Below, one piece after another: positions 6,656-58,127 of a stretch of DNA of 64,000 nucleotides (position 1 is the stretch's first letter; each line of letters opens with the position of its first letter). The notes below the pieces were generated by a model that was not told where the DNA came from, searched no databases, and was given only the letters and a program-made list of their open reading frames with translations. Both the position numbers and the translations under genes were made by a program. This stretch comes from Ochromonas danica (taxonomy: Eukaryota; Sar; Chrysophyceae; Chromulinales; Chromulinaceae): NCBI GenBank assembly GCA_015146655.1, contig VKHL01000053.1:86468-150467 (forward strand), given 5' to 3'.

Positions 6656-9293
6656 TCATCTCCTACCAGCATTGCGATCTTCTCTCAACTTCACATAAGT
6701 TGCATAAAACATCTCGATCGAAAATGGTTTTGCTATAAAGGCATCCACACCAGCATTCAAAGCACCCTGCATTGTCTCATGGTCTGAGTTGGCTGAGACA
6801 CCAATCACTACTTGGTGAAGCTGTCCTGTCATCGCTAACTCTCTAACAGTCTCCGTAACATCAGGGATCACGAAAGAACATGGATGACGAGACAATGCCA
6901 ATTTCGAGACATCCCCACTGCCAATGGTACTCTCTTCTGACAACAATACTGATGATCTCACAGAGTTCTCAAATGCTCGCAAGCGACGAGTGGCTTCTAG
7001 CCCATCCATCACTGGCATCTGAAGATCCATCAACACCACATCGAACAAAGTACCACTAGATACTAATCTCTCCGAAATAAGCTTCAATGCCACATCGCCA
7101 TTCTCTGCTATCGTTATGTGATGGCCTAAACGATGCAACATCATCGACATCATCTTCACGATCGTTGGTGAGTCATCGACCACCAAAATACTCAGATCAT
7201 CTTCTTTCTCATTACCTCCATTCATCTTCGCACTGTCCATGTCATACAGATGTAAGGTCGAATTCGAAGCTGGAGACTCTAGTCGCGCTCCTTCACTTCC
7301 TTGTATAACCCATCTAGAAACGACATCACATTCCTCCGAGTGCCTATCCATTACTTCCAAGCTCCTATCCTTACCACAATCCTCAGAAATGGTAGGGAGT
7401 TGGCATCTCATGAAACTGCGACGAGGAGAGAGCGACTTGCGAACCATATCATCTGCTGTAACCACATCCGCACGATACGGAATCGAGAACCAAAACACAC
7501 TACCTTGCTTGCCATCTCGACGATGAGACACGCCATAAAACCCATTCAATGCCTCCATGCGACGGGCCAAACTGTACAAACCCAGTCCCGTCCCTCCAGC
7601 CAAACGTTGGGCTTGCTTGAACGGATTAAACAAGTTGGCCATCGCTTCCTCTGACAAACCGATCCCATGGTCCTCGATCTCAATACGAAGAAAGCTCTCA
7701 TACTGGTTAGGAGTTTTATCCACATGCCCATTATGATCATCATTACCTCCCATGTCTCCTCTGACCACACCATCACCAAGATCTTCTGACATCACCATGG
7801 GATAGATCTGAGTAGAAGATGCTATCATCTGGGAAGATTCAGATCGAGGACTCTCTCGAGGAGAAACCATATACATTGAGTCATCATTCTCGCGCTCACC
7901 ATCTCTCTTCACACCCACACCTCCCTTCTCATACCTCTCACCTATCTTTGCCTTCTCCTCTTCCAACACCTTCAGTATCATTCTCACCTCGCCTCCACTC
8001 GAATACTTCACCGCATTGCTCAACAGACATAATACATTCTCTTGCAACCATTGCTTGTCCGTTATGATATGAGAGCAGATATCTTGCGGTAAGGGATCCA
8101 AAACGATCGACACTCGCTGCTGAATATCCTTCATGCAATTCAAAGGAAGAAGTAAGCTCTCCACCAGATCGATTGTCTCATACTTCGGCACCAGCTTCAG
8201 ACCCTTCGATGCTTTAGTGTAGTCGATACAACGGTTGATTGTCATCAACATGAATGAATTTGTGTTGCGTATGTTCTGCACGCAGTTCAAGATAGAGAGA
8301 ATATTGTCTTGAACTGCATTCACATCTCTGTTGTCTCTCAGATTGTGCTGACATTCCAACGCGATGTCAGAAATCAACTCGATGCCACTCAAGAATGACA
8401 TCAAAGGCTGCGAATAAGAAACGCATTAATGGCAACAATGTCAACAGGGTTTTCTTGGGAAGAATGCTGCTTACCGTTTTCAAATCATGGGCTACATTCG
8501 CGATCATGTGACGCATCTCTGTGGCATGCACTTCATCTGCCATCTCGTCCTTTTCTTTCATCGTCTTCTGTAACTCCATCATAATGAATGCCATGTAATT
8601 GTTATAACGGTATTTTTCGAAGATTAAGATGAAGCTGGGTATGGTAAATATACCAGCAATTGTGTAAAAGAGCTCATTATCACCTAAATGAGCTGCATAG
8701 AACAATGCTCCAATGGTAAGTCCCCAAATACTTAAGTATACCCTCATATCTAGCTCTCGGTAAATGGCACTGAAGATAAGAGGGAAAGCCATCAAACAAA
8801 CACCAACTTCATCTATTGAACCAAGACGCGGTCCTGATGGTAAGCAATTCCACTTGTACTTCTCAAATAACTCTCCATGACATTCTTTGATAAATGAACG
8901 AGTTAATAAGCGAAAGATGAAGCAAATGGTAGAACCTAGGGCAGTATAGATTCGCATGAAAGGCACTTTCTTCATCCAAAACATATGATAACGTTGATTT
9001 AGAAGATAATTACCAAAACATTGGTAAAAGAAAGATATCCACATGGAGAAGAAGACAGTCACCAATCCAATCGCTGGGAGAATGAACAAACAGTTCGAGT
9101 AGACAATGGCATCATAGTAAGCAGGTGCTTGGGTAGCTGACAAGAAGCAATAAGTGAGAAAGAGTGCTGCTAGAGACTCGTGATTTGCACTCCAAATCCA
9201 AAAGTCTTTTCGAATGGAAGAATCAAAGGATTCTCTGCGTAGAGTAGCATATCGTCGACCCCAGATGAATTCATTCACAGAGAAATGATTCAT
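6656..9293 (-). CDS. membrane hybrid sensor histidine kinase, copy 2
   Basis: Two exons, 8475-9293 and 6656-8407, join in phase 0 across a 67-bp intron at the same place in the H-box as copy 1, giving 856 aa. The architecture is the same: multi-pass membrane sensor, HisKA, HATPase with GGTGLGL, and a receiver with VLMDLQMP. It differs from copy 1 in two ways. Between the HATPase N-box and the DHGIGL motif there is a 13-residue insertion (ERYEKGGVGVKRD). In the sensor, substitutions cluster between the PFMR and PLIF motifs (for example LPSGPRLGSIDEV against LPSGPNLGTTDEI). Receiver and kinase core are otherwise nearly identical, so the two probably share downstream partners but may sense different things. 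Confidence 0.9.
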
Positions 9294-9853
9294 GTTAAGA
9301 GAAGAGAACGGATATAAACGACAACAATTTTCGAATAGGAAAGATGATCAACGGTTTTGTTCCTTTGTTCCCAGCAGCATGATGTTGTTATTGGATTGAT
9401 GATGTTGATGTTGGTGCTGGCGAGGGTGACGATGGTGGTTTTTCATTCCACTGCTGCTGCTGCTGTGGGGGGCTTTGGGTAGTGATCAAAGTAGAGACAC
9501 ACATCCTCTCCTCACTTCCGGACATCACAATTACCCAATTCCATCCAATTCCATCATGGATTTCTCTTCTTTGGATGACTTTTCCGGTTTTCGAAACAAC
9601 ATCAAAAACAAAACAACAGCCCCAATGCAGCCCCACAATGGGAAAACATAATATAGATCCCACCACATCCAATTCCAATTTGGAATTCAAACTCAAATCT
9701 ATTCCATCTCTTTAGTCCTACAGTATTGTTTCGCCAGAACCATTGTAAAAGCACTAAAAATGTTGAAAATTGATGAAGTAATGTTGGACTTCTGCTGGCG
9801 AGGGCGAAAACTCGCGTCCGGGGGAAAAATTCACGTGAGTTATGCCCCAGCAG
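9294..9853. other. spacer upstream of kinase copy 2
   Basis: There is no supported gene. A GCT-type trinucleotide run lies near 9449-9465. The stretch after about 9760 runs into the first tandem 246-bp unit. Short open frames on both strands show no motif. Confidence 0.5.
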
Positions 9854-10837
9854 GAACAGTTTCGGCCCTCGCTAGACATCCTCTCACTGAGAAAGATGAT
9901 TTTATGTCTAGGGAAAATGATAATACTACAATAATCAAGCCATGTAATTGTGGCTTTAGCATTAAGAAAGCAATCAATGCTTGAAAGACCTTATCATTCT
10001 TACATCATAGCAATGAAGATAGACTATCTACCCTGGACAAGGTAGTGAACAGTAGTGCATAACTGCAATCATTTACATCAACAAGACTGCTAGCTCGAAG
10101 AACAGTTTCGGCCCTCGCTAGACATTCTCTCACTGAGAAAGATGATTTTATGTCTAGGGAAAATGATGATACTACAATAACCAAGCCATGTAATTGTGGC
10201 TTTAGCATTAAGAAAGCAATCAATGCTTGAAAGACCTTATCATTCTTACATCATAGCAATGAAGATAGACTATCTACCCTGGACAAGGTAGTGAACAGTA
10301 GTGCATAACTGCAATCATTTACATCAACAAGACTGCTAGCTCGAAGAACAGTTTCGGCCCTCGCTAGACATTCTCTCACTGAGAAAGATGATTTTATGTC
10401 TAGGGAAAATGATGATACTACAATAACCAAGCCATGTAATTGTGGCTTTAGCATTAAGAAAGCAATCAATGCTTGAAAGACCTTATCATTCTTACATCAT
10501 AGCAATGAAGATAGACTATCTACCCTGGACAAGGTAGTGAACAGTAGTGCATAACTGCAATCATTTACATCAACAAGACTGCTAGCTCGAAGAACAGTTT
10601 CGGCCCTCGCTAGACATTCTCTCACTGAGAAAGATGATTTTATGTCTAGGGAAAATGATGATACTACAATAACCAAGCCATGTAATTGTGGCTTTAGCAT
10701 TAAGAAAGCAATCAATGCTTGAAAGACCTTATCATTCTTACATCATAGCAATGAAGATAGACTATCTACCCTGGACAAGGTAGTGAACAGTAGTGCATAA
10801 CTGCAATCATTTACATCAACAAGACTGCTAGCTCGAA
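9854..10837. repeat. four tandem copies of a 246-bp unit
   Basis: Units begin at 9854, 10100, 10346 and 10592. The last three are essentially identical and the first carries a few differences. The array ends 20 bp before the stop codon of the SAHH-like copy A gene. Read on the minus strand, the unit resembles the single-copy 3' flank of SAHH-like copy B (about 57225-57480). The array is therefore a local amplification of that gene's 3' flank. Each unit has a 72-aa open frame simply because it is repeated. Confidence 0.93.
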
Positions 10838-10839
10838 AC

Positions 10840-12800
10840 TCCTCAGAGTTGAGTTAGTTAATAGCGATAATAAGAAGGTTTGAATGGACCTTCTACAGAG
10901 ACACCAATATAGTCAGCCTGATCTTTGGTAAGCGTAGTGATCTCCATATCGAGAGCAGCCAGGTGGAGTCCGGCCACCTTTTCATCAATATGCTTGGGAA
11001 GAATGGTGACCTCACCACGCTTGTACTTGTGAGAAACTCTATTAGACCAGAGTTCAACCTGAGCCAAGACTTGGTTGGTGAAGGAAGCAGACATGACGAA
11101 AGAAGGATGGCCAGTGGTACAAGTCAAGTTGAGCTGACCACCCTCCGCCAAGACGATCACACCGTGGCCATCATCAGGGAAGATAAAGCGATCAACCTGA
11201 GGCTTGATATGCTCACGAACAGTCTTCTTGATAAGATTCTCCATATCAACTTCTTGTTCGAAATGATGACCCATGTTACCAACAATAGCGTTGTTTTTCA
11301 TTTGTGCCATGTGGTCATACAGGATGATGTTCTTGTTACCAGTAGTGGTGATAAAGATATCACATGTCTTGACCACAGACTCCAGGCGAACAACAGAGAA
11401 GCCTTCCATAGCAGCCTGGAGAGCACAGATGGGATCTACCTCAGTGATATAGACCACAGCACCAGCACCTTTCATAGCATGTGCACAACCCTTGCCAACA
11501 TCACCAAATCCACTGATAACAACATGCTTACCAGCTATCATGATATCTGTGGCACGACAGATACCATCAGGGAGTGCATGTTTAGAACCATAGAGATTGA
11601 AGAGCTTGTTCGTGGTGACAGAGTTGTTAAGGGTAATGGCAGGGAAGAGCAGCTCACTCTTCTGTGCTAAGCCAAACAATCTGCGGACACCCAGGGTATT
11701 CTCTTCAGAGACACCAACAATACGTTCAGCTAGGCGATGCCATTTCATAGGGTTCAGAGGTAGCTCACGAGCTAAGATAGAGTAAATAATCTTGAACTCC
11801 TTCGCCTCAAAGGAGGATGTATTGTGAGTGGTGTGAGGGTCAGGGAGAGAGCCTTTCTCAAAGAAATTCTTCTCAGCTTTGACACCTTCATGAATGAGGA
11901 GAGTCATATCACCACCATCATCTATGAGTAGGTCACAACCATCTCCTTTCTCATCATCGTCTGGCCAAGTGATGGCTTTGAGAATACACTCCCAGTACTC
12001 CTCGAGGGTCTCACCCTTCCAGGCGAAGACAGCAGCAGATCCTTCACGAGCAATAGCAGCAGCAGCATGGTCTTGTGTGGAGACCATGTCAGAAGAGCAG
12101 CAACGGACCTCTGCCCCCAGCGCCTTGAAGGTCTCGATAAGCACGGCAGACTGGATGGTCATGTGCAAGGAGACTGAGAGTCTAGCACCAGCGAAGAAGT
12201 CAGCAGGGAAGTCTCTTCTACAAGCCATCAGACCAGGCATCTAAGATAGCATTCAGTAGCCATTCATCATCACACAATCACACAATCACATTAATTCATC
12301 ATGACCATCACTAACTAAGAGAGAGAGAGAGAGAGAGAGAAGGTCATGACCTCCTTATTACCTCATGCTCTGCTAGCTCGATCTCTTTGCGTCCAAAGTC
12401 AGCAAGAGAGATATTATTAACACGGTAGTCTACTTCAGACATGTCTAACTTCAGAGTGTGTGGTGGGTGTGGGGGGACACAGAGAGAGAGAGGTGTGAAT
12501 TAATTGTGGGTGATTGTCTCATTGGAAGGTCATAGCTGACTCTAGGAGACACTCATACTCATTCATCCTGGTGACCTCATTCTCAGGAACCACAAGTTAG
12601 TAGTCAGTGAACGGCTCTGGGAAGATCTTCTCTTCTTCTCTTTTGCTTTTCATTTCTTTTGCGATGCTCATCAACCTGCTCATCTTAACTTCACAACCCG
12701 ATGATGTTAACTTCACAGGAACAGGTTAACTTCACAGGCTGCGCGTTAACTTCACAATCCGCTGATGTTAACTTCACAGAATATGGTTAACTTCACAGCT
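10840..12800 (-). repeat. arm A of an inverted ~2-kb duplication (partner 55290-57240)
   Basis: The SAHH-like gene, its intron and about 350 bp of upstream DNA are repeated in reverse orientation at about 55290-57240, roughly 43 kb away. Coding DNA is near-identical except for a short block around 11795-11875, where copy A has 18 extra bases and several substitutions. Weaker similarity continues into the 3' flank. Confidence 0.9.
10858..12442 (-). CDS. S-adenosylhomocysteinase-like protein, copy A
   Basis: Exons 12362-12442 and 10858-12240 join in phase 0 across a 121-bp intron holding a GA microsatellite, giving 487 aa. The fold is that of SAHH, which hydrolyses S-adenosylhomocysteine with tightly bound NAD. 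Visible signatures are [22 protein letters not shown], the NAD site [17 protein letters not shown] and the C-terminal FKPSYYRY. However, at positions equivalent to human AHCY the catalytic Lys186 is Thr, Asp190 is Phe, Cys195 is Ser and Glu59 is Gln (in [15 protein letters not shown] and LHMTIQS). Normal hydrolase activity is therefore doubtful. An AHCYL-like regulatory role is possible but is inference. The gene lies next to a 246-bp tandem array and has an inverted twin at 55649-57215. Confidence 0.9.
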
Positions 12801-12828: not shown

Positions 12829-15800
12829 ATGGATTCCACTCCCTTGGTGCAATTTCCAATTTCCGATTTCGGATTTTCGAGTTTCTCAACTGCTCAACTG
12901 CAAGAAGTTGAGCAGGAAATCAGAAATTGCACCAAACAAACCAATCAATTACAAGAAGAAAGAATTTGCGTTAAAGTACAAAAGTGGAAGAGTAAAGAAA
13001 AGATGAAACCTCCTGGCAATAGTTTTCTAGACCATATGCTAAGATCCAGGAAGCTTCTGGCCTCTTCGCTGTCGCTTAAAGCTCGACACAATATTGCCTT
13101 TGGTTTACGCACTGCCTGGTCAGTCTTACTCTGTCTAATCCTAATGCATTACTGGCAATGGGCTACTATTGCCCAATATCTCTCTCCTGTCATCTCTATC
13201 GTGTCCAGTGTCTCTTATTTTGGCCTCTGGCAGGAGAAACTATTCAAAGTCACATCTTCTATCATTATTTCTGCTGCTGTTGGTGTGGTGGTGGGTTTGT
13301 CCTATGAGATGAAAGCTTTACAGCTAGTACTCATATTTGTAGGTATTTTCTGGATTAATCGAATGCCAAACTGGGATCGCTATAGCATTGTCAAGGGTAT
13401 GTTAGCCTTCTTCTTGGGAGCTGTCTGGCCTACTATAACAAAAGGAACAGTGACAGGATTAAAGGCATATCAGACCGTCCTAGCACTCAATCTGATCCCC
13501 TTAGTTATTAATGGAATCAGTATGCTCTTCCCAAAACCTGCTTTAGCATGTTATAATGCTCGTTTTCAAGCTTTGCTAATATGTCGTAAAGTCAGTCATA
13601 TGACAACTGCTATGGTGAAAGCTTTCTTATCCTATGATGATGTTGACTTTTGCTTCACAGAGTTTGATCAATACTATTCAGAGATCTTAGAGGATATGTC
13701 TGTCTTGAAGACCTTAAGTCAACATGTTGATTATGAACGTTTGATTTTCCCTTCCTTAATTGACATGCCAGCTGCTTTACAGGTTCTATTGGAAGTTCTG
13801 GAATTGTCTGTACAAGAGCTGGTAGGTCTGAAGGAAATGCTACAACGTATTACATTCAACAAGACACAAGAGCATTATGCTAGTCGTCTACAACGTCCTT
13901 TGCAGGAGATGGCAGAGGAGATGGATATTGCACTTACTATGGTAGGTGAGCATTTTGACTCGTTTGATCCATTCCGAGGAATGGTACCTGCTTGTATCAG
14001 ATCTTTTTTACGGGAACTTTGGCCTGATTGTGTGTCTTCTTTGTTGGATGGTCAAGTCCATGTCTTGAGACGTCGAATGAGAGAGTTTATGCAAATCCCT
14101 AATAGCCAAGAGCTACTCTATCAACATCTCAAAGCAAAGGATCATCATCATCTTCCTCCTAGTGATCAAGAGAATACAGTAGAGGAGGAGAAAGGTATTA
14201 AAGCATTACATCACTATCCTATAGCAGGTGTGGAGGAAGTGGTGGAAGTACATGCTGACCCACCACCAGTCAGTCATCAAGAAACCAATAGTGATTGTTT
14301 GACGACGTTCCAACAAGCTATTGATCGCTTGTGTCGTGCTCGTTCGGAAATGCTTTTTGGTTTCTTGGAAATTCGTCGTGGCTATTTGGAATTTCGTTCA
14401 GAGAGGACAGAGGAGAGGAATAGTGGTGGTGGTGGTGGTGGTGGTGGTGGTGGTGGTGGTGGTGGTGGTGGTGGTGGTGGTGGTGGTGGTGGTGGTGATG
14501 ATGATGATCATCCTCTACCCACATCCTATTCCTCCACTTCTGTTGCTGATCGTTTAGCTAAGGCAGAAGCGATGGTTTCTCTCTTACGTGAAGAGAAGTT
14601 ATTAATGGAAGAACGTCAACGAACACAAATGAACAAAGGTTCAGAAACAAAACAACAGCAGCATGATGATGATGATGAGGTAGACGGAGATTTATCTCGT
14701 CATCCTATTACCATGGGTGATGATGATGAAGAAGAAGAAGATCCACAACGCAAGGTGGTAGATGAAATATGTAGTGAGCATTTAGACAAGTTAACGATGA
14801 GGGAAGAGACTATGCGATTAAGATTACGTAACTTTGGAGCACGTGGTGCATTCTTTCATCGCTTTTCAGTGTTAGTCGAGTATTTAGCATCTTTACAATA
14901 TGTACTTATTCTAAAGGGAAGACAATTCTGTTTCTCTTCATTTGCACAAGGTTATATATTAGCAATTGTGAATTACTTTGTCTCAATAGTTATGTCTATA
15001 GGAGAAGGATGGTCATACTGTATAAATCTCTATGAGAAATCCCCTACAAGTTGTAGCTTTCTATTGAACCTTGCTGATACATTTCTTGAGACTTATATCA
15101 TGGCATTGAAAGCTGCAATAATTGTCACCATTTGTTCTTCTATTTTGATTTATAATCTTATGCCTTTTCTATATAATGGAGGGTTTTGGATGACAATGGT
15201 AGTTATCATTTTACGTCAAGATAGTACATCCTCTTCTGTTCTTACGTCAATGCAACGTCTTGAAGGTACTGTAGTAGGATCCATGTATGCCTTTCTGATT
15301 TATAGTATCTTCGGTTGTGATCAAGGACATTGTGGTTTTGCATTTTCTACACCTGCTATTGTGTTATGGGTGACTGTAATTGGATTCTTTAGAGATGGAC
15401 CACATCATGGTTATGCTGCTAGTGTAGCCTCTTTTACGCCTGTTGTTGTATTGATGAGAAGTAGTAATACAATGGCCACAGCATGGGGACGTATTGAGGA
15501 GACATGTGTTGGTATTGCTATCTTTCTAGTCGTTGATAACATATTCTTACCCAGACGTACCTATCCTATTATTAAATCCTCTGTCTTGACGTGTATTGAA
15601 CAGACACGTTTAGTATTTAAAGACTCTGCAAAAGGTGTGGAGACATTAGTTAAATTGGAGACCTTGCCATGGAAGACTAAGAAGGCAGAGGAAGGAGGGA
15701 ATCCTACTACAGACCAGGACTTAGCCACAGCTGGTCTTGGTGTTTATGGAACTACAACAGATGTACGTTATCGCTCAGGTAGTATAGCTCATGAGATGTT

Positions 15801-16716
15801 TCAAGAATCGTTACATCAACAGGAGGAAGAGAGAGAGACATCGACTTCAATTGATATTGAAAGTCATGTAGAAGTACACAATGAACACAATGAATCTGAA
15901 TCTATTCCACAACCTATTCGAGAGCTATTAGCTTCTTGTTCTGCTAATTTCTTAAGTGCTGAGAAGAAATTGAATAAAATCCGAGGTGAGTTGTTGAAAC
16001 AACGTGGACTGTTGAGTTTGGTTCAGTTTGAACCAGATCTATGGAGAAGAAGTTTCCCTAAAGCTGCTTACCAACGCCTTTTGGATACTTTCATCAAAGT
16101 CTATCGCTCTGCTTTAGCATTGAATTCAGGATCTAAAGCCTTCACTGTGGTGTTGACACATATGTTAAGACGAGGCGAGAACATCTCTCAACATCTTGAC
16201 CACTTCAAATATATGATCAATCATCTCTTCTTGGTCTCTACCAAAGCAGATAAAGCCTTGTTACAAGCTTATGAAGCTTTTCAAAAGTAAGAGCTATAAT
16301 CAATGCATGTATATCTGTATTAGTACTGCAGCTGAACTAACTATGATGTGTATATGACTTGGTTGTGCAGGTTGTATGCTCGAACAGGAGAAGAAGTCGA
16401 CCTCTCTTCCTTACTAGCTCTTCGCCGCGTCTGTGATAAATTACTTGAGGCTGTTGAAGAACATTTCCATTTGGTCTACCTTCGACAGCCTCCCGCAGTG
16501 CTCTTAACCTTCAATCCTTACTTCCTTGTGGCCTGGCAGGTAGGAGGATGCATAGCATACTGTAGATTTCTTTGGTGTGATAGGGTTGAGAATGTTGTGT
16601 ATGGTTGTGTTCCACAGGATGTCTTCGAAAGTGCTCAAGATCTGATCAAAGACCTTTCAGCACTTGGAATGGTCTTGCTGACGGTTCGTGATATGGAAGG
16701 GATTTTGTCGATTTGA
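12829..16716 (+). CDS. FUSC/ALMT-like multi-pass membrane transporter
   Basis: Three exons, 12829-16286, 16371-16539 and 16618-16716, join through 84- and 78-bp introns to give 1241 aa. Two blocks of membrane helices, near residues 90-240 and 700-910, flank a large hydrophilic region. The second block contains the motif QRLEGTVVGS, which resembles the R-x-x-GT signature of fusaric-acid-resistance and aluminium-activated malate transporter families. Efflux or channel transport of organic anions is therefore the best guess; the substrate is unknown. The hydrophilic loop contains a run of about 24 Gly codons and acidic stretches. The first ATG is used, but the Met at 13003 (MKPPGNSF) is an equally plausible start. 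The C-terminal part is helical and exposed. Confidence 0.8.
14425..14496 (+). repeat. (GGT)24 microsatellite coding poly-Gly
   Basis: An uninterrupted run of about 24 GGT units lies in frame in the FUSC-like gene and encodes a glycine tract, followed by a short Asp run. It sits in the soluble loop between the two membrane blocks and is probably length-variable. Confidence 0.95.
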
Positions 16717-20457: not shown

Positions 20458-22233
20458 TTATTGTTGTTGACTAGTAGTCGATGATAGCACAGCAGGTGGT
20501 TGGCATTGTTGTTCTAGTTGATGAACAGCTTGCCAATCAATAGTACTAACAGGTAAGGTATTAATACCAATCGCTTTCAATACCATATTTAATACCGCAC
20601 TCTGTTGTGTCACAAGAGGTAAATCAGCTGGAACACCTTGTCCTTGTATCACTGTACCACGTGGTGAGACATATTGTGCTACCGTGATAGTCATACCAGC
20701 TCCATTGGACAGACCAAACACACCTTGTATCTTACCTTTACCAAAGGTTTGACTACCTATGGTAATAGCATGACATTGATCACGTAATGCAGCTGTGAGG
20801 ACTTCACTAGCTGATGCTGTTAGACCATCAACAAGGATGACAATTGGTTTAGGATAGAGAGGGAGAGAAGAAGAAGAAGAGGAGGTGGTGGTGGTGGAGG
20901 AGGAGGGTATAGATGAATAGAAGACAGTATCTTGACTACTCTCTTGTGATCGTCCATGAACACTCACCATCGGCACATGATCTCCTAAGAACAATCCACC
21001 AATATTCAATGCAAATTGAAATCCTCCTCCTGTGTTACCTCGTAGATCTAGCACTACCTCATCCACTTGCTCCGTTAGACATTTCTCTAACGAATCCTTC
21101 ACAGCTTGAGGAGCTAATTGATTAAACTCTTCTAACTGGATTAACCCTATTTTCTTGTTGGGTCTAGTTGTAGTAGAGGTAGTGGTAGTAAGGGAGGGTA
21201 GAGTGACGATATGGAAGGTAACAGGGTTATTAGCCTTTTCTAATGCTCGTTGTAATACTACCACACGATGAGAACTACTACCACTACCACTACCACTACC
21301 TACTTCCTCCTCCTCCTGAGAGAGGGGTGGACCTATTTCCAAGGTTAGTGTAGGTTGTACATCATTCGACATGTCTTCTAATAACTGTATTGCATTAATC
21401 TCTTTTGTTGATTTACCATTCACACTATAGACTATATCACCTTTCTTAATCCCTGCTAACTGACCTGATGACCCTATAATAGGTGGAGCTGCTACAACGA
21501 GACGATCATTGGTGGTAGTAGTAGTACTAGTAGTAGTACTAGTTGTCTTATCATTTAGACGATCATTGGTAGATTGGAATAGGATACCAACTCCAATAGC
21601 ATCAAACTTATATAATGATTCATATTGAGAAGGAGTTAACCATCGAGTGTATTTATCATGTAGACTAGAGATAGCCTCTTGAAGTACCTCCACCTCCACC
21701 TCCTCCACCTCCGCTACACTACCACTACCTCTATGAGAGAGTTTGTCTAGACTTGTGAGATAGAGGTGATTCCAATCGTCTAGTTGGAAGGAAGGGTCAT
21801 AGAAGTTGTCAGCGACGAGCTGCCAACCTTCTTGGAAGAGAGGGTACCTCCCTCCTCCTCCTCCTGATCCTTGTAGTAGTGACTGCTGGGTAGCAGGGGG
21901 AGGGGTAGTAGTGGTTGCATGAGCGGAGGTGAGCGAGGAGGTAGTGCTGGTCCAAGGTAGCGGAGGAGAGGAGTAGAAGAGTGTAGCAGACAGTCCTAGG
22001 GCAGCGACTATCTTTCTCAGATAATGACTTCCTCTCACTTCTTCTTCCCCCTGCTGCTGTCCTCCTCCTCCTCTTGCTGCATAGCAGCTGCTGGTATGAC
22101 GGGAATAGTGACGAGGATGATGAACATGATGATGATGAGAGAAGAGAGGGCTAGGATGAAATCTCAGACTATAGGAAAACCCTAGGAAATAGGTCGTGCA
22201 TATTGTCAACCATAATCTATTGACTTGTTGCAT
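20458..22233 (-). CDS. CTPA: C-terminal processing peptidase (CtpA-type, S41), thylakoid lumen
   Basis: A single exon of 591 aa. The N-terminus has a signal-peptide core (LWLTICTTYFLGFSYS), then a basic, Ser/His-rich stretch resembling a transit peptide. A second hydrophobic segment follows (IVAALGLSATLFY), with an Ala-X-Ala site (SAHA|T) as in thylakoid transfer domains. The mature part holds a PDZ domain with AGIKKGDIVYSVNGK, then the S41 core with DLRGNTGGGF, the nucleophile Ser in TASASE and the general-base Lys in FGKGK. In this family the enzyme trims the C-terminus of photosystem II protein D1. Low-complexity Thr/Ser/Gly insertions lengthen it. It is divergent from RAB3GAP1. Confidence 0.93.
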   Translation of the reverse strand: MQQVNRLWLTICTTYFLGFSYSLRFHPSPLFSHHHHVHHPRHYSRHTSSCYAARGGGGQQQGEEEVRGSHYLRKIVAALGLSATLFYSSPPLPWTSTTSSLTSAHATTTTPPPATQQSLLQGSGGGGGRYPLFQEGWQLVADNFYDPSFQLDDWNHLYLTSLDKLSHRGSGSVAEVEEVEVEVLQEAISSLHDKYTRWLTPSQYESLYKFDAIGVGILFQSTNDRLNDKTTSTTTSTTTTTNDRLVVAAPPIIGSSGQLAGIKKGDIVYSVNGKSTKEINAIQLLEDMSNDVQPTLTLEIGPPLSQEEEEVGSGSGSGSSSHRVVVLQRALEKANNPVTFHIVTLPSLTTTTSTTTRPNKKIGLIQLEEFNQLAPQAVKDSLEKCLTEQVDEVVLDLRGNTGGGFQFALNIGGLFLGDHVPMVSVHGRSQESSQDTVFYSSIPSSSTTTTSSSSSSLPLYPKPIVILVDGLTASASEVLTAALRDQCHAITIGSQTFGKGKIQGVFGLSNGAGMTITVAQYVSPRGTVIQGQGVPADLPLVTQQSAVLNMVLKAIGINTLPVSTIDWQAVHQLEQQCQPPAVLSSTTSQQQ

Positions 22234-35936: not shown

Positions 35937-36702
35937 GATGGCAGATGAAGGTGTGGTAGTTGTAGTAATAGTAATAGTGTAGGTAGTAGATGTGGTTATA
36001 GTAAAAACTAGGTGGTGTTAGGTAGTGGGTAGTGGTAGAAGAAGGCTAGCACTACCTGCAATAACACTCCCCTATAAACTGTAGCAGTAACGTAATGTAG
36101 TAGCTATACCACATCAATACACCAAAAGAAAAGATCGCACAAGACACACAAAAGTAACAATATCCTCATTTCAACTTCAATCAGAATTATGCTTTGTTCC
36201 GAATTAATGGTACCTTATTCTTGTTGGGATTCGTCACATGTTGAAATGTTCAAAATTTTGTTTTTCTTCTGAATTGATTCCGAAATTTAAATAGCAAAAT
36301 GATGCTTTGTTTTTTGAATTCTTTCAATGTGAAATTAGTGGTCCTATCGCCACCAAGCAAGAGCTAAACTTAGAAGTAACCACTGTTAACTTCTTTCAGA
36401 CATCATTTGTTTTGGCAAGTGCTTTGAGGTTTGTAAAGAAAGACTAAGAGAAGGAAAAGATCAAACTTTGTTGAAGTTAAGTTTTGGGACTCTGGTGGGA
36501 GTTTTCTTGCTGCTGAGGTGGGTGTTTACTTGGACTGTGGAATTACACTTTCACTGATTGCACCTCCTCCATCAAACTCCATCAAGCCATCATTTCCAAT
36601 TGCGTCACACCAACCAATAACCCACAAACGTTTGATCACATAGTTCTGCGTTATCGATACCAGTCTTGGAAGTAATACTTTCAATAGGATAAAGCATCTC
36701 AA
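35937..36702. other. intergenic; start of a duplicated block
   Basis: The 3' end of the RRM gene and the 3' flank of the next minus-strand gene. From about 36246 onward it is repeated at 38105-38558 with few differences. No gene is seen. Confidence 0.55.
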
Positions 36703-37403
36703 TTAGAATAGAAAATCTTCAGGAAACACAGAACCAATGAACTTGCGAAACATCTCCACGTCCACACCTGGCAGATGCTCCTTGATAGGCTCGAACACTT
36801 TGTCCAGATTCTCTTCTGGGAAGCGACAATCTTCGTTAGAGACCACAAAGGCACGACCACATGTGACAGTGTAGCAGAGACTTCCCGATCCCTCATTGTC
36901 TCCATTGTAGTCGCAACTGACGGTGAATGGACCAAAATCAATAGTAACTTCTGAGCAGACATGGTAATCGGCCCGCTCGAAGTGAGAGTTAGTGCATTTC
37001 AGATTCTTGGCAAGGTCGAATAATACTGGAGGGATGACTCGTTTCGCATCATTATTGTTCTCACCATCGCCCTTATCACCACTGTCATAATCATCAAAGT
37101 AGTTTTCGGGTGTGAGTGTTTTCAACATGTCTCTTCGAAATGACTCAGTGCGAGCTTCCAGTTCACCCGCTTCCATTTCTTCGTCAACCATTTCTTTAAG
37201 AGCTTTCATGAGCTTGACGCGCTGATTCTTATCAAAATCTGCCAACTTAGTTCGACAGTCCTCGACAAACTTCTTGACATCATTTCCTACGATCGGCGGT
37301 AATGCAACAACGATGAGAGAAGAAAATATTTGTTTTTGGGAAGAAGTAGAAAAAATAAAATACCTTGAATTTCACTTGCTTTTCTCTTGTTGTTTGAAGG
37401 CAT
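36703..37403 (-). CDS. unknown protein of tandem pair, copy 1
   Basis: Exons 37364-37403 and 36703-37286 join in phase 1 (CAA G|GA) over a 77-bp intron, giving 207 aa. The start MPSNNKRKASEIQ has a nuclear-signal-like KRK. The N-terminal half is a charged helix (KNQRVKLMKALKEMVDEEME), followed by an acidic loop (NYFDDYDSGDKGDGENNND). The C-terminal half, with IDFGPFTVSCDYNG and YTVTCGRAF, is β-like and ends in a conserved EHLPGVDVEMFRKFIGSVF. I recognise no family. It is identical to copy 2 outside residues ~115-175 and differs at 26 of 60 residues within. A TGTGAAGTTAA motif lies about 130 bp upstream of the start. Confidence 0.75.
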
Positions 37404-37585
37404 AATTCCTGATTTAAGAGAATCTTGTTGCTGATGTAAGAGATCTCTTGTTGGTTGAAGAGAATTGATTTGACTGTGAAGATGTTTTGATGAGAGAGAG
37501 TGAGAGAGAGTGTGTGTGATGAACACTGAACAGAGGCTTTAACTTCACACAACACACAACTTTTTGTCTGTCCCTCGAAACCAGA

Positions 37586-37660
37586 CATCTACACCAAACT
37601 CATGAAAATAGCTTTAAAAACCAATTTTGATGATTAGCAAAGTCACAAAACGCTGTTAGT
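37586..37660. repeat. dispersed ~75-bp repeat with quasi-palindromic core
   Basis: The sequence beginning ctacaccaaactcatgaaaa is found here, at 39446-39522, at 39533-39609 (just across the assembly gap) and, diverged, at 19163-19220. Its core around tagctttaaaaaccaatttt is partly self-complementary. It lies just upstream of each copy of the tandem gene pair, so it may be a small mobile element or part of the duplicated promoter. Confidence 0.75.
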
Positions 37661-37832
37661 GAACATAATCACCATGTCACATCTCCGATACGCGGGAGCT
37701 GCAGCACGACCAGCTCGTAAAGTTAAAGTAAAAGTTGAACCTACTAGATGATGGATCAAACTATCTTTCCATCCATTGTTGTCACTGATGATCATCATGA
37801 AGAAGAAGATGACGAAGAGGAAGATGATCTGA

Positions 37833-38003: not shown

Positions 38004-38558
38004 AAAGAGTTGCCATCATCCACAACTCTCGCCTCACAAGAGACATGTACTACCGTGAGCAGATGCAGCTAGTTGAACAAGTGTCATGTCAGATGTCCAG
38101 CAAAAAGTGCAAAATTTTGGTTTACTTCTGAATTGATTCCGAAATTTAAATAGCAAAATGATGCTTTGTTTTTTGAAATCTGTCAATATGAAATTAGAGG
38201 TCCTATCGCCACCAAGCAAGAGCTCTTAGAAGTAACCACTGTTAACTTCTTTCCGTCATCATTTGTTTTGGCAAGTGCTTTGAGGTTTGTAAAGAAAGAC
38301 TAAGAGAAGGAAAAGATCAAACTTTGTTGAAGTTAAGTTTTGGGACTCTGGTGGGAGTTTTCTTGCTGCTGAGGTGGGTGTTTACTTGGACTGTGGAATT
38401 ACACTTTCACTGATTGCACCTCCTCCATCAAACTCCATCAAGCCATCATTTCCAATTGCGTCACACCAACCAATAACCCACAAACGTTTGATCACATAGT
38501 TCTGCGTTATCGATACCAGTCTTGGAAGTAATACTTTCAATAGGATAAAGCATCTCAA

Positions 38559-39259
38559 TTAGAATAGAAAATCTTCAGGAAACACAGAACCAATGAACTT
38601 GCGAAACATCTCCACGTCCACACCTGGTAGATGCTCCTTGATAGGCTCGAACACTTCGTCCAGATTCTCTTTTGTGAAGTGAGGATCTTCTTCAGAGACC
38701 TCCCAGGCACGACCACATCTGACAGTGTAGGCGGGACTATCACATCCATCATTGTGACCACTGTACTCGCAAGTGACGGTGAATCGACCAAAATCAATAG
38801 TAACGATTGAGTAGATGGTGGCGTTGGCCTGCTCGAAGTGAGAGTTAGTGCATTTCAGATTCTTGGCAAGGTCGAATAATACTGGAGGGATGACTCGTTT
38901 CGCATCATTATTGTTCTCACCATCGCCCTTATCACCACTGTCATAATCATCAAAGTAGTTTTCGGGTGTGAGTGTTTTCAACATGTCTCTTCGAAATGAC
39001 TCAGTGCGAGCTTCCAGTTCACCCGCTTCCATTTCTTCGTCAACCATTTCTTTAAGAGCTTTCATGAGCTTGACGCGCTGATTCTTATCAAAATCTGCCA
39101 ACTTAGTTCGACAGTCCTCGACAAACTTCTTGACATCATTTCCTACGATCGGCGGTAATGCAACAACGATGAGAGAAGAAAATATTTGTTTTTGGGAAGA
39201 AGTAGAAAAAATAAAATACCTTGAATTTCACTTGCTTTTCTCTTGTTGTTTGAAGGCAT
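38559..39259 (-). CDS. unknown protein of tandem pair, copy 2
   Basis: Exons 39220-39259 and 38559-39142 join as in copy 1, giving 207 aa. The first ~114 residues and the last ~32 are identical to copy 1. The window between carries the changes, such as HFEQANATIYSIV against HFERADYHVCSEV and DPHFTKENLDE against DCRFPEENLDK. Framework residues (VTIDFG, FTV, CGRA) are kept, so the fold is probably preserved while its surface is altered. An interaction or recognition role would fit such a pattern; that is inference. Confidence 0.75.
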
Positions 39260-39522
39260 AATTCCTGATTTAAGAGAATCTTGTTGCTGATGTAAGAGAT
39301 CTCTTGTTGGTTGAAGAGAATTGATTTGACTGTGAAGATGTTTTGATGAGAGAGAGTGAGAGAGAGTGTGTGTGATGAACACTGAACAGAGGCTTTAACT
39401 TCACACAACACACAACTTTTTGTCTGTCCCTCGAAACCAGACATCTACACCAAACTCATGAAAATAGCTTTAAAAACCAATTTTGATGATTAGCAAAGTC
39501 ACAAAACGCTGTTAGTGAACAT

Positions 39523-46521: not shown

Positions 46522-48946
46522 CTACAGATCACGACCCCGAATAGCAACTCGAAAATATTCGTCAATTCGGGAGCGATATTGGGTAGGTTTGGCAGGAGAA
46601 GGAGGCAGACCATTACTAGCACGGCCTGAACCAACAACTGTAGCTCGTTCACTGAGCTCAACAGATGTGCCTCTTAGCGAATAGTTCTCTTTGGAAGATC
46701 CACCGCCCATACCAGGAGATCGAGTCTTCCTCATAGAGGCATTGGGAGAAAATCCTCCTGCAGTTGGTGATGAGAAAGGTGAACTATCATTCACTTGCAA
46801 TCCCGTGGAGAAATACTCCAACAGTCTATCCAGTATGTCTGGTGCACCAGCATGACGGGATAAGAATGTTTGCAGACGATCTTTACCTACAATTTGAACA
46901 ATCAATCGAATGGCTTTGTCTTTCTCTCGCTTTGTTTTCTGAAGCTATGAGCAAAGATATCAAATCACACAACAGAAACATAAAATAACAGTCTAATCAC
47001 AGGCTAGTAGACAAAGTACTTACCAACAGCTCAAGTTGCTTTTCTCGCTCTCCTCTTCGTATCGCTGCATCCAAACTTGACGTATCAGGCCCTTTCGCTT
47101 CACCATTATCCCGGTTATGCTTGGATCGACTTGAGCTAGAGGCTGGAGAGGAATTGTAGTTACCAGCAGCTTGAGCTTCACGTTCCAATAGCTTGGATTG
47201 AAGTTCCTGTAATTATCAAACACAACCCTTATCACACGAAGTCATGCCGTATTGCTGCTTGTACTTACCTTAACGCTCTCTTCCAGAGCCTGTTTGTCCG
47301 TGCGAAGACGACTCAACTTTTCATGAGCTTCATCTAACTCACGTTCCAAAGCCACTTCTCGAGATAATACTCCTGCTGTTCCCTCTTTCTGTGCTAGACG
47401 GCCTTCCGCACGAGATAGTTTGCGACGTAATTCGGCGACTTCTTCTTCCAACTCTACAAGTCGTCCAGAGGACTGTTGAGGTGCTTTCAAATTGACGCTA
47501 CTACTACTTTGAGCCTCTCCTTGGGATGACTTTTGAAGGGGAGGAGGTGAGGATATGGCATTGTTGGGGGCTGGAGCTGATGGAGGACGAGAACTTGGAG
47601 CTGAAGGAGGGGGTCCAGAAGGAGCAGGTGCTGGGGCAGGTTTAGGATTCGACGGAATACTACTAGATGTTGATTCACTCTCAGCAGACCCTTTCGATTC
47701 TGCTTCCTTCTCAATCACCACTGTTGCTGGAGGTGCTGCTGGTGGAGGAGGCCCCATAGGTGGAGCTGCTGGAGGAGGTGCTGTTGATGACGTTGTTGAG
47801 GAAGAAGGCACGATATCAACATGTGGAGAAGGAACAGGAGTGAGAACGGCAGGGGGAGATGGTGCTGCTGGCTGTGTTGAAGGACTGACGAGAGGCGCAG
47901 GGCGAGGGGGTGGCTTTCGAGATACTTCAGGTGGCTTCGCAACAGCTTGTTTCACAACTGCACCAGAAGGATGACGTGATCCAGGGGCTAGTACTTGTGG
48001 ACCAGCAGTGGCTACACTAGGGGAGGGAGCATCGTCATCAGACCATCCCTCCTCATCAGAGTCTCCTCCTTGCCCACCATTCCCGCCACCACCTTCTCCA
48101 TTCTTCTGCGCAGCTCTTTGAAGCATTTGTGTGTTAAAACCACCAGTTGATTGTTGCGTTTGTAAAGGGGCTGGTGGAGGGCCTCGAGCGGGAGCTGAAG
48201 CTGGGGGTGGACCTGGAGGCCTTGCCATCGCATCTAGAGCCAGCCAAACTCTAATGACACAATGCTCGACCAATATCAGGGAACTTCACTTACTTGGAGG
48301 CCCAGGAGGCCCAGGAGGTCGCGGACCAGGAGCTCCTGGGGGGCCTGGAGGTCCCGGAGGACCTGGCGGCCGAGCAGAAGGTGCTCCAGGCGGTCCTGGT
48401 GGACCTGGAGGTCTAGGAAGAGGTGCTCCTGGTGGTCCCGGCGGTCTAGGTAAAGGTGCACCAGGAGGTCCAGGTGGGCGCGGAGGGCCTGGAGGGGCAG
48501 CCATCGGGGTGGCACTGGGTGGACCTGGAGGACCAGGTGGACGAGGAGGTGGAGCTGCAGCACCTGGTGGACCAGGAGGTCCTGGAGGCCCAGGAGGACG
48601 AGGAGGAGCTATTAGATCCATAGTTTATTATTTATATGATATAACTCAATATCAAAAAGCACATCACTTACCCCCAGGTGGCCCAGGAGGTCTGGGGGAA
48701 GCTCCCGGCGGTCCAGGGGGCCCAGGAGGTCCAGGAGGAGCTAAAACAACAAATCAATCCAAGATCCTGATCAGCAACAAGCAAGGAAAGCGCTGCTTGA
48801 AAACGAGAGAGGGTATAATCTATTACCTCCAGGAGGTGGTATTGCCCTCGGTGGAGCAGGAGGAGGTCTTGGCACTCCTATAAGTTAAGAATAATCATGA
48901 AGGACTGTCTATGAACTCAGTCGAATTATCATTTCTTACCTGACAT
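46522..48946 (-). CDS. proline-rich, coiled-coil protein (possible actin regulator)
   Basis: Seven exons fit in frame: 48940-48946, 48827-48877, 48672-48740, 48294-48608, 47269-48233, 47024-47206 and 46522-46944, giving 670 aa. Introns are 60-86 bp. Exon 1 codes only MS plus one base. Residues 3-150 are Gly-Pro-Pro triplets like a collagen or formin FH1 tract (PRPPGPPGPPGPPG). An acidic DSDEEGWSDDD and a second Pro/Ala-rich region follow. Residues ~405-545 form a coiled coil (LEEEVAELRRKLSRAEGRLA). The C-terminus has a conserved-looking helical segment (DKAIRLIVQIVGKDRLQTFL) and a Ser-rich tail. No FH2 or WH2 domain is seen, so profilin/actin or SH3 binding is only a suggestion. Confidence 0.75.
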
Positions 48947-55025: not shown

Positions 55026-55648
55026 CAACAACTGTAACAACAACTATAACAACAACTATAGTAACAACTATAACTGTGCCAAGTTAGTTTAGTAGGTTTG
55101 ATTTTAAGTATGAGGTTGGTAATGCTTGTTGAAGTAACAGCCTTTGTTTGGCGTCATTAAAGATCATTTCCCGAAACCAATCAATTAGCAGTTAGATGCA
55201 TAGATGCCACTACACTGTAGTGATCAAATGCTACAAACTGTTAAAGTTGGACAAGTTAAAGTTATAGGAGGTGAAGTTAAGAGAAGCAAGCTGTGAAGTT
55301 AACCTGTTCCTGTGAAGTTTACACATGCGAATGGTGAAGTTTAGAAATGCAAGCTGTGAAGTTAACCTGTTCCTGTGAAGTTAACATTATCGGGTTGTGA
55401 AGTTAAGACGAGCAGGTTGATGAGCATCGCAAAAGAAATGAAAAGCAAAAGAGAAGAAGAGAAGATCTTCCCAGAGCCGTTCACTGACTACTAACTTGTG
55501 GTTCCTGAGAATGAGGTCACCAGGATGAATGAGTATGAGTGTCTCCTAGAGTCAGCTATGACCTTCCAATGAGACAATCACCCACAATTAATTCACACCT
55601 CTCTCTCTCTGTGTCCCCCCACACCCACCACACACTCTGAAGTTAGAC
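55026..55648. promoter_or_regulatory. upstream region of SAHH-like copy B with TGTGAAGTTAA array
   Basis: Several exact or one-mismatch copies of TGTGAAGTTAA lie between about 55270 and 55406, in the same orientation relative to the gene as at copy A. The part from ~55290 is the duplicated counterpart of 12443-12800, but spacing and some motif copies have drifted. The first 250 bp hold the 3' UTR of the Sel1 gene. Confidence 0.6.
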
Positions 55649-57240
55649 ATGTCTGAAGTAGACTACCGTGTTAATAATATCTCTCTTGCTGACTTTGGAC
55701 GCAAAGAGATCGAGCTAGCAGAGCATGAGGTAATAAGGAGGTCATGACCTTCTCTCTCTCTCTCTCTCTCTCTTAGTTAGTGATGGTCATGATGAATTAA
55801 TGTGATTGTGTGATTGTGTGATGATGAATGGCTACTGAATGCTATCTTAGATGCCTGGTCTGATGGCTTGTAGAAGAGACTTCCCTGCTGACTTCTTCGC
55901 TGGTGCTAGACTCTCAGTCTCCTTGCACATGACCATCCAGTCTGCCGTGCTTATCGAGACCTTCAAGGCGCTGGGGGCAGAGGTCCGTTGCTGCTCTTCT
56001 GACATGGTCTCCACACAAGACCATGCTGCTGCTGCTATTGCTCGTGAAGGATCTGCTGCTGTCTTCGCCTGGAAGGGTGAGACCCTCGAGGAGTACTGGG
56101 AGTGTATTCTCAAAGCCATCACTTGGCCAGACGATGATGAGAAAGGAGATGGTTGTGACCTACTCATAGATGATGGTGGTGATATGACTCTCCTCATTCA
56201 TGAAGGTGTCAAAGCTGAGAAGAAGTTCGCTGAGGATGGCTCTCTCCCTGACCCTCACACCACTCACAACTCACAGTTCAAGATTATTTACTCTATCTTA
56301 GCTCGTGAGCTACCTCTGAACCCTATGAAATGGCATCGCCTAGCTGAACGTATTGTTGGTGTCTCTGAAGAGAATACCCTGGGTGTCCGCAGATTGTTTG
56401 GCTTAGCACAGAAGAGTGAGCTGCTCTTCCCTGCCATTACCCTTAACAACTCTGTCACCACGAACAAGCTCTTCAATCTCTATGGTTCTAAACATGCACT
56501 CCCTGATGGTATCTGTCGTGCCACAGATATCATGATAGCTGGTAAGCATGTTGTTATCAGTGGATTTGGTGATGTTGGCAAGGGTTGTGCACATGCTATG
56601 AAAGGTGCTGGTGCTGTGGTCTATATCACTGAGGTAGATCCCATCTGTGCTCTCCAGGCTGCTATGGAAGGCTTCTCTGTTGTTCGCCTGGAGTCTGTGG
56701 TCAAGACATGTGATATCTTTATCACCACTACTGGTAACAAGAACATCATCCTGTATGACCACATGGCACAAATGAAAAACAACGCTATTGTTGGTAACAT
56801 GGGTCATCATTTCGAACAAGAAGTTGATATGGAGAATCTTATCAAGAAGACTGTTCGTGAGCATATCAAGCCTCAGGTTGATCGCTTTATCTTCCCTGAT
56901 GATGGCCACGGTGTGATCGTCTTGGCGGAGGGTGGTCAGCTCAACTTGACTTGTACCACTGGCCATCCTTCTTTCGTCATGTCTGCTTCCTTCACCAACC
57001 AAGTCTTGGCTCAGGTTGAACTCTGGTCTAATAGAGTTTCTCACAAGTACAAGCGTGGTGAGGTCACCATTCTTCCCAAGCATATTGATGAAAAGGTGGC
57101 CGGACTCCACCTGGCTGCTCTCGATATGGAGATCACTACGCTTACCAAAGATCAGGCTGACTATATTGGTGTCTCTGTAGAAGGTCCATTCAAACCTTCT
57201 TATTATCGCTATTAACTAACTCAACTGCTGTCCCGAGTTA
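55290..57240 (+). repeat. arm B of the inverted ~2-kb duplication (partner 10840-12800)
   Basis: It contains SAHH-like copy B, its intron and upstream region in opposite orientation to arm A. Weaker similarity continues to about 57480, where a single copy of the sequence amplified four times at 9854-10837 is present. Confidence 0.9.
55649..57215 (+). CDS. S-adenosylhomocysteinase-like protein, copy B
   Basis: Exons 55649-55729 and 55851-57215 join in phase 0 to give 481 aa. The protein equals copy A except near residue 140-165, where B reads [11 protein letters not shown]…NSQFKIIY and A reads [11 protein letters not shown]…[14 protein letters not shown]. Both have the NAD-binding [14 protein letters not shown] and GHPSFVMS. 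Both share the same replacements at human AHCY catalytic positions: Thr231 for Lys186, Phe235 for Asp190, Ser240 for Cys195 and Gln57 for Glu59. His53, the Asp of DDGGD and the Glu of VSEENT are kept. Since neither copy is canonical, a true SAHH should exist elsewhere in the genome. Confidence 0.9.
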
Positions 57241-58127
57241 GCAGTCTTGTTGTAGTTAATACCGCTGTGCTGCACTACCTTGCACTACCTTGTCAGGAGT
57301 AGATAGTCTATCTTCATTGTTATGATCAGTAAGAATGATAAAGTCTTTCAAGCAGTCATTTCCCTCTCTTTGTACACCAGCAGTTACAAGTAGTTTAGTT
57401 TACATCATATGCTATAGCTTGACTGTTATTGTAGTGGATAGACAGAAAGTCATATTTCTCACTGAGAGAAAGCGCAGTTTTGAAGATAAAAGTCGATACA
57501 AATGATACAGTACAGGTGTAGAGGTAATAGTGGCTTCTGAGTAGTGTAATGTAGTGTGGTGTAGTTTAGTGTAGAAATAGCACACTTACTGATGAATGTA
57601 TGGCGAATTAGACTATGGCTATGACTATGATGATGTTTGTTTGTATTGTGTTAGACAATGATAATAATGATGATTTACTACTATACAGTGTACACACACA
57701 TCACACATTAGTACTAGTGCTAGTATAGTTTAACTTAACTAACAACAACAATATAGTTAGCCTTCTTTAACTTAACCTCATCATATTGATCATCACTATC
57801 ACTACCACTACCACATCATCATCACAATCACTGTTACATCATCATCATATTGATCATCATCACCTTCTTCTACCACTATCTGACCTCCTCCTCCTCCTTC
57901 TCCTCTTCTTTCATTCATTCTTGTTGTTGTTGTTATTGTAAAGCCTGTAATGACATGGTTAGTCACATACAGCTAGTCTACACCACACAACCACCACCAC
58001 ACCAGAGAGACAGACAAGACAGACTGTAACTTTACTACCTTGTTAACTTAACCTAGCATTATGTAATAACATAATCCCTGGATTACGTAATAACATAACT
58101 CCATTACCTCTTCTTCTTCATCTTCTT
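57216..58127. other. convergent intergenic region
   Basis: It holds the 3' flank of SAHH-like copy B (similar to one 246-bp unit up to about 57480) and the 3' side of DIM1. The rest is AT-rich with short CAT/CTT runs. No gene is seen. Confidence 0.55.

Follow-up and report, generated by a model that had tools for sequence, protein, structure and literature searches.

A paralogue of SAH hydrolase with an altered active site in an apparent alga: a likely nucleoside- and NAD-binding pseudoenzyme

The analyzed window (the whole 64-kb stretch, on contig C53 of a 31.2-Mb, 337-contig genome) contains two genes of the SAH hydrolase (SAHH) family, named copy A and copy B, which are inverted relative to each other and encode proteins of 487 and 481 aa, respectively (Table 1). 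A GT-AG intron and a stop codon are in place in both genes, and the start and end of the proteins coincide with those of the canonical enzyme in the alignment. The spliced protein of copy B is identical to an existing EukProt gene model (P0001). Both copies have a one-residue insertion after His301, and copy A alone has a six-residue, in-frame insertion. Copy B matches the Pfam families PF05221 and PF00670 with 337.2 and 234.3 bits (cut-offs 25 and 27); for the exon-2 proteins, the Pfam SAHH score is 337.2 bits in copy B and 332.9 bits in copy A against the cut-off of 25. When the exon-2 proteins of copy A, copy B and the canonical gene were scored alike, both copies missed the TIGR00936 equivalog cut-off of 497.6 bits (464.9 and 464.4), which the canonical protein passed (558.8). 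The NF004005 (NCBIfam) cut-off of 275 was passed by the copies (326.7 and 326.8) and by the canonical protein.

Table 1. SAHH-family genes and associated features (window coordinates unless another contig is named)
Feature	Position	Strand	Remarks
Duplicated segment, copy B side	55289..57360	+	96% identical to 10710-12800 inverted, 27 gap columns
Duplicated segment, copy A side	10710..12800	-	
Homogenised tract (probable gene conversion)	55410..57225	+	Zero differences to copy A outside 56225-56274
Island of difference within identical tract	56225..56274	+	Copy A counterpart 11799-11866, 18 bases longer
GTGAAGTT elements (putative)	55271..55407	+	Seven, upstream of copy B
GTGAAGTT elements (putative)	12687-12799		Six, upstream of copy A
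Copy B exon 1	55649..55729	+	27 codons; aligns to exon 1 of canonical gene (L005:3814-3894)
Copy B intron	55730..55850	+	121 bases, GT...AG, between codons; position of canonical gene's intron
Copy B exon 2	55851..57215	+	454 codons plus stop; SAHH fold
Copy B altered hinge / active-site motif	56445..56489	+	K186T, D190F, C195S
Copy A exon 1	12362..12442	-	
Copy A intron	12241..12361	-	
Copy A exon 2	10858..12240	-	460 codons plus stop
Copy A altered motif	11584..11628	-	Identical to copy B motif
Canonical SAHH gene	Contig C24, L005:3814-3894 plus 3976-5331		478 aa; unaltered NDSVTKSKFDNLYGC

The two genes lie in a duplicated segment whose identity varies along its length: the 60-base bins adjoining the homogenised tract are about 75-82% identical between the copies, and within the tract the only differences fall in one short island. 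It is in this island that copy A encodes its six extra residues; the canonical enzyme and a metagenomic relative (P0002, see below) resemble copy B there. The copy A counterpart of the island holds CTCCTTTGAGGCGAAGGAG, a short inverted repeat, and its 18-base insertion appears as if it had come from hairpin templating. The inverted pair looks like an older duplication homogenised by gene conversion, and its diverged flanks argue against a mere assembly duplicate. Gene conversion would explain the identity of A and B, so their sameness is not independent evidence of selection on each copy. Thus, of the statement in the preliminary description that the gene is kept in two copies, the presence of two near-identical genes stands, whereas the uneven identity along the segment indicates that their sameness is largely due to conversion; the idea that A and B are independently retained genes is weakened to that extent.

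The putative GTGAAGTT elements occur 21 times in the whole window, 13 of them upstream of copies A and B, and two more (L005:3023 and 3604), in reverse orientation, are located in the 814 bases that precede the canonical gene. Immediately downstream of copy A (9854-10837), a 246-base unit is present four times in tandem. In three of the four units, a stretch matches the 3' flank of copy B at 83% identity, which means that this flanking DNA of an SAHH copy was multiplied as well.

Other features were also observed in the window. Two tandem duplicates are present, one of a membrane histidine-kinase / response-regulator-like gene, labelled so from its translations (815-3928 and 6193-9325, 92.7% identical), and one of a 180-aa ORF (36244-37666 and 38103-39522, 96% identical) with two versions that diverge in their middle to C-terminal part. 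A 1153-aa ORF with a FUSC / aromatic-acid exporter domain match (12829-16290) points away from copy A. A 591-aa S41 peptidase is encoded at 20458-22233; its PDZ-like match (PDZ_6, 25.8 bits) is below the cut-off of 27, and its leader gives the impression of being plastid-directed. At 47242-48883, a GPGG-rich ORF on the forward strand overlaps a proline-rich ORF on the reverse strand, in low-complexity sequence.

A PF05221 profile search of the whole genome returned four matches, two of them being copies A and B and the other two belonging to a single canonical gene on contig C24, in which the catalytic Lys and Asp are in place. This gene rules out a genome with no other SAHH, and the cell therefore need not rely on the copies for SAH hydrolysis. 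Its intron is at the same position as in copies A and B, so the copies originated from a duplication that preserved the intron. Used as a DNA query (three candidates scored), the duplicated segment matched copies A and B, the canonical gene and, in addition, three short pieces of 3' flank, and it revealed no further gene copy.

To describe the residue changes, the copies were aligned with human AHCY, whose numbering is used throughout (its sequence was matched to 1LI4), and with 155 canonical relatives. The latter were derived from 193 database proteins, 156 of which were 440-530 aa in length, by removing P0001 and P0002 and adding the genome's own canonical enzyme. In both copies the hinge motif aligns gap-free to NDSVTKSKFDNLYGC. 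The preliminary description had reported Lys186 replaced by Thr, Asp190 by Phe and Cys195 by Ser, with both copies sharing the changes; all of this is confirmed, and D182N, S187N and F189L are found in addition. Neither Lys nor Asp is present at the catalytic positions, and another alignment that would restore them is ruled out by the absence of gaps in the motif. The near-invariance claimed for these positions in true SAHH holds for Lys186 and Asp190 (155 of 155 canonical relatives) and fails for Glu59, whose replacement by Gln had been counted as a loss. Gln is the normal residue there, being present in all 155 relatives including the genome's own canonical enzyme, and the available part of PMC4647836 also gives Gln at this position for some SAHHs, such as those of Mycobacterium and lupin.

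The equivalents of His55, Asp131 and Glu156 are intact, as had been described, and His301 is kept too. The NAD site had likewise been called intact, which is true of Gly222, Asp223, Val224, Glu243, Asn346, Lys426 and Tyr430 but not of Thr157, Thr159 and Ile299, now Asn, Leu and Met; which residues touch NAD is here in part our assumption. Six changes were missing from the earlier list (N80D, F82V, R343G, L344Q, G348T and A350T). The copies differ from 154 or 155 of the 155 canonical proteins at N80D, F82V, T157N, T159L, D182N, K186T, D190F, C195S, I299M, R343G and L344Q. Besides the residues named above as intact, L54, T57, Q59, N181, N191, L347, H353, M358 and F362 are kept, along with the C-terminal KPxxYRY tail. 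Among the 193 database proteins, 188 hold TKSKFDN; the exceptions are P0001, P0002, P0146 and two fragments without the motif region (P0147 and P0183). P0146 (616 aa), in which pieces are repeated and the single motif has Glu at 186, was not counted in the altered lineage, since it is likely a chimera.

The altered positions were then compared with the adenosine contacts of SAHH given in the available part of PMC4647836. According to this source, the 3'-OH is contacted by Thr157 and Lys186, the 2'-OH by Glu156 and Asp190, the 5'-OH by His55, Asp131 and His301, and the base by Leu54, Thr57, residue 59, Leu347, His353, Met358 and Phe362, and Lys186 serves as the acid at the 3'-oxygen. In the copies, three of the four 2'/3'-OH contacts are changed (both 3'-OH contacts and one of the two 2'-OH contacts) against none of the ten 5'-OH and adenine contacts (Fisher p = 0.011, a test picked post hoc); all seven adenine contacts are kept.

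It is worth noting that a further lineage has the same alterations. The metagenomic protein P0002 (458 aa, encoded on a contig of 1,822 bases) shares 83% identity with copy B as well as the changes N80D, F82V, T157N, D182N, D190F, C195S, I299M, R343G, L344Q, G348T and A350T; position 159 is Ile in this protein, and 186 is Arg. The changes common to the copies and P0002 are therefore older than the lineage split. Its N-terminus has MITVQ before MPGLM, which is not exon 1; we infer that this start fits an intron at the same place, translated from genomic DNA. A total of 208 columns are near-invariant (98% or more in the 155 canonical proteins). Copy B is altered at 33 of them and P0002 at 34, with the same change at 20 and different changes at 6, whereas the 155 canonical proteins have a median of 0 and at most 18 differences, a control that is partly circular because the columns were defined on them. 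Within the hinge (182-196), both lineages are altered at six of the 12 near-invariant columns, whereas outside it this holds for 20 of 196 (p = 0.001, again a test picked post hoc).

In the phylogenetic tree (40 of 196 rows, LG+G4 without a mixture model, AHCYL left out), P0002 groups with the copies in a single clade (100/100) whose sister is the own canonical enzyme of the genome (99/92), and a grouping of the copies with the canonical enzyme to the exclusion of P0002 was rejected (AU p = 1.3e-8). The own canonical enzyme belongs, together with P0016 of Chromulina nebulosa, to a group of 13 rows (92/94). The branch lengths, in changes per column, are 0.20 for the stem of the altered clade and 0.14 and 0.15 afterwards, compared with 0.025 for the canonical enzyme. 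Relatives were collected by a full-length search (best 120 of 7,998), a P0001 region search (33) and a P0002 region search (best 120 of 7,983); among the 193 distinct proteins listed, no member of the altered lineage was found beyond P0001 and P0002, and distant members may be missed. Taken together, the sequences show a real SAHH paralogue with an altered active site, common to two lineages.

Several lines of evidence bear on constraint. For copy B versus the canonical gene, NG86 gives dN 0.112, dS 0.793 and a ratio of 0.14, and YN00 gives dN 0.101, dS 1.688 and a ratio of 0.06; these ratios are pairwise and mix both branches, including the slow canonical one, with an uncertain dS (0.79 or 1.69). 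Of the 62 private changes that followed the split, 15 hit near-invariant columns, compared with 208 such columns among all 456 (p = 3e-4); the fold therefore remains under constraint. Changes on the shared stem do not avoid such columns (20 of 47), and the direct comparison of stem and private changes gives only p = 0.06. In 300 neutral, substitution-only simulations run to 83% identity, a mean of 2.7 stops arose and about 5% remained without a stop, which makes intact frames weak evidence by themselves. GC3 amounts to 0.478 in the copies, 0.699 in the canonical gene and 0.18-0.49 in nine other ORFs of the window.

The AlphaFold model of the paralogue has a pLDDT of 87.9, versus 91.6 for a canonical relative (P0003). 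Residues 221-250, corresponding to the altered hinge, score 76/67/81 in the paralogue versus 87/71/90 in the canonical relative, and confidence is also lower around 391-400. The best PDB match by Foldseek is lupin SAHH with adenosine (3OND, TM 0.87, 61% identity).

These results support the preliminary view of a pseudoenzyme or a changed reaction, given the canonical SAHH in the genome, the second lineage, the low dN/dS and the avoidance of family-invariant columns. Most likely, the paralogue is a pseudoenzyme in which the binding of nucleoside and NAD has been retained. The fuller proposal, that copies A and B encode a redox-dead protein which senses SAH or adenosine, or tunes the canonical enzyme in mixed oligomers, is on balance modestly probable. 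The sequences show that an SAHH gene was duplicated in the lineage, intron included, and that one daughter stayed canonical. In the other, the inter-domain hinge and the surroundings of the ribose 2'/3'-OH changed most, and these changes outlasted the later split. Without Lys186, Thr157 and Asp190, the NAD-dependent 3'-oxidation that starts SAH hydrolysis should fail, a prediction made because of the roles that the available text of PMC4647836 assigns to these residues. Because the adenine and 5'-side contacts, the checked Rossmann residues and the Lys426/Tyr430 tail are kept, the paralogue would still fold, oligomerise and bind both NAD and a ligand of the adenosine type (SAH or adenosine). 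It might then act as a ligand-sensing regulatory subunit in oligomers mixed with the canonical enzyme, or sense SAH/adenosine as a free protein. The available part of the review PMC12955632 states that Lys426 and Tyr430 of AHCY extend into the adjacent subunit, whose NAD they stabilise, and that lupin SAHH is a homodimer. Since both residues are kept in the copies, a mixed oligomer could serve the canonical partner, whose NAD site the tail of the paralogue would complete. Against this explanation speak the homodimeric state of lupin SAHH, the dispute over AHCYL1-AHCY heterotetramers, the lower AlphaFold confidence in the altered parts and the finding of a single further member of the lineage among the proteins listed (P0002), whose Arg186 keeps a positive charge there; moreover, Phe190 could hinder ribose binding, so that ligand binding by the paralogue is not assured. 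The Phe in place of a 2'-OH contact and the loss of the 3'-OH machinery also suggest a further version, to which we give a small chance: the pocket may recognise a nucleoside other than SAH or adenosine (e.g. lacking or blocked at 2'/3'), followed by redox-free catalysis or by reporting of its level to methylation metabolism via mixed oligomers with the canonical enzyme.

Other explanations have to be weighed against the proposed pseudoenzyme. The paralogue may be a neofunctionalised enzyme whose remodelled pocket supports a different reaction or accepts a different nucleoside (e.g. altered at 2' or 3') by means of the His55/Asp131/His301 side. The 5'-side catalytic residues are indeed kept, both lineages have kept the pocket changes of the stem (T157N, D182N, D190F, R343G and L344Q), and a precedent exists in AgmF of angustmycin A biosynthesis, an SAHH relative that acts as an NAD-dependent dehydratase on the SAHH fold and does not accept SAH, as reported in the available part of PMC8599513. 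The same source, however, shows that AgmF retains key catalytic residues and that K184A and D188A abolish its activity. We infer that Lys184 and Asp188 are the equivalents of Lys186 and Asp190, and on this equivalence the AgmF mutants support the inactivity of a protein lacking both. In addition, position 186 is Thr in one lineage and Arg in the other, unlike a new catalytic residue, and we regard neofunctionalisation as unlikely. Alternatively, the protein could remain an SAH hydrolase of low or conditional activity, with neighbouring residues replacing the lost ones. This would agree with the kept fold, checked Rossmann residues, gate His353, His301 and Glu156, with the charge of Arg186 in P0002 and with the NF004005 scores; but both 3'-OH contacts (as assigned in the available part of PMC4647836) and Asp190 are replaced, the TIGR00936 cut-off is missed and a canonical enzyme is present in the genome, which makes residual hydrolysis quite unlikely.

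Two further alternatives were considered. A structural or moonlighting protein unrelated to SAH, for instance a scaffold using only the NAD/Rossmann half, would account for the conservation of the checked residues of that half and of the tail, and AHCYL1 does act on ion channels and transporters according to the available part of PMC12955632. A pure scaffold would, however, not need the seven kept adenine contacts (as listed in the available part of PMC4647836), and there is no extra domain like the IRBIT extension, the ends of the copies matching those of the canonical protein; such a role is very unlikely. Finally, the duplicate might be decaying into a pseudogene, A and B being similar by gene conversion only. 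Conversion does explain their identity, the altered lineage has evolved faster than the canonical one, and the in-frame insertions are oddities of the kind that decay could leave. Yet the frames are open in two lineages 17% apart, intron signals and stops are in place, the dN/dS values are low, private changes avoid invariant columns, and 20 identical changes at near-invariant columns are found in both lineages. Decay is thus hardly likely.

Compared with known systems, the paralogue is closest to the canonical plant-type long SAHH (lupin 3OND and the own gene on contig C24), with which it shares the fold, length, adenine contacts, checked Rossmann residues and KPxxYRY tail; copy B differs from it at Lys186, Asp190, Thr157, Asp182, Cys195, Arg343 and 27 further positions of the 208 near-invariant ones. 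The prozymes of trypanosomes, catalytically dead paralogues of AdoMet decarboxylase and deoxyhypusine synthase (PMC5201418, PMC6221367 and PMC3663545, as far as their available parts go), offer an analogy, in that the copies may likewise work as a dead paralogue beside an active enzyme and tune it in mixed oligomers. The enzymes are different, however; in the copies, the tail residues Lys426 and Tyr430, which could serve such a partnership, are kept. AgmF resembles the copies as an SAHH relative with another job, but it keeps and needs the Lys and Asp that are apparently lost in them (PMC8599513, available part).

The nearest parallel in kind is the IRBIT family, AHCYL1 and AHCYL2 (3MTG and 3GVP), described in the available part of PMC12955632 as SAHH paralogues with a damaged active site that exist beside active AHCY. 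AHCYL1 shares with the copies Met299 and a polar residue at 348 and 350. Within the C-terminal half, the sole part compared, the losses are otherwise complementary, as the preliminary description had anticipated in speaking of different losses: AHCYL1 keeps Lys186, Asp190, Cys195 and Arg343 and loses 352/353, Met358 and Phe362, whereas the copies keep Gly, His, Met and Phe at 352/353, 358 and 362 and have lost 186, 190, 195 and 343. In the copies it is thus the residues of the chemistry that are gone and those gripping the nucleoside that remain, the opposite of AHCYL1 in that half. The copies do not have the N-terminal IRBIT extension, a feature described in the same review, and start like the canonical enzyme, beside which they branch in the 40-row tree without AHCYL. 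They would therefore be an inactive SAHH paralogue whose origin is apparently distinct from that of AHCYL and whose losses complement those of AHCYL1 in the compared half. According to the available part of the review, inactive SAHH relatives belong to animals (vertebrates and arthropods, for example) and not to plants; our literature search, made at the level of listed titles and abstracts and covering few subscription papers, found no SAHH pseudoenzyme in an alga. AHCYL1-AHCY heterotetramers are disputed, and the authors of the review doubt the association (PMC12955632, available part). With an active and an altered enzyme in one genome, the mixed-oligomer idea is directly testable in this alga. 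As SAHH removes the by-product of S-adenosylmethionine-dependent methylation, the proposed algal pseudoenzyme and AHCYL1 would together offer a natural way to ask which purpose a dead SAHH serves, be it SAH sensing, tuning of the active enzyme or something different.
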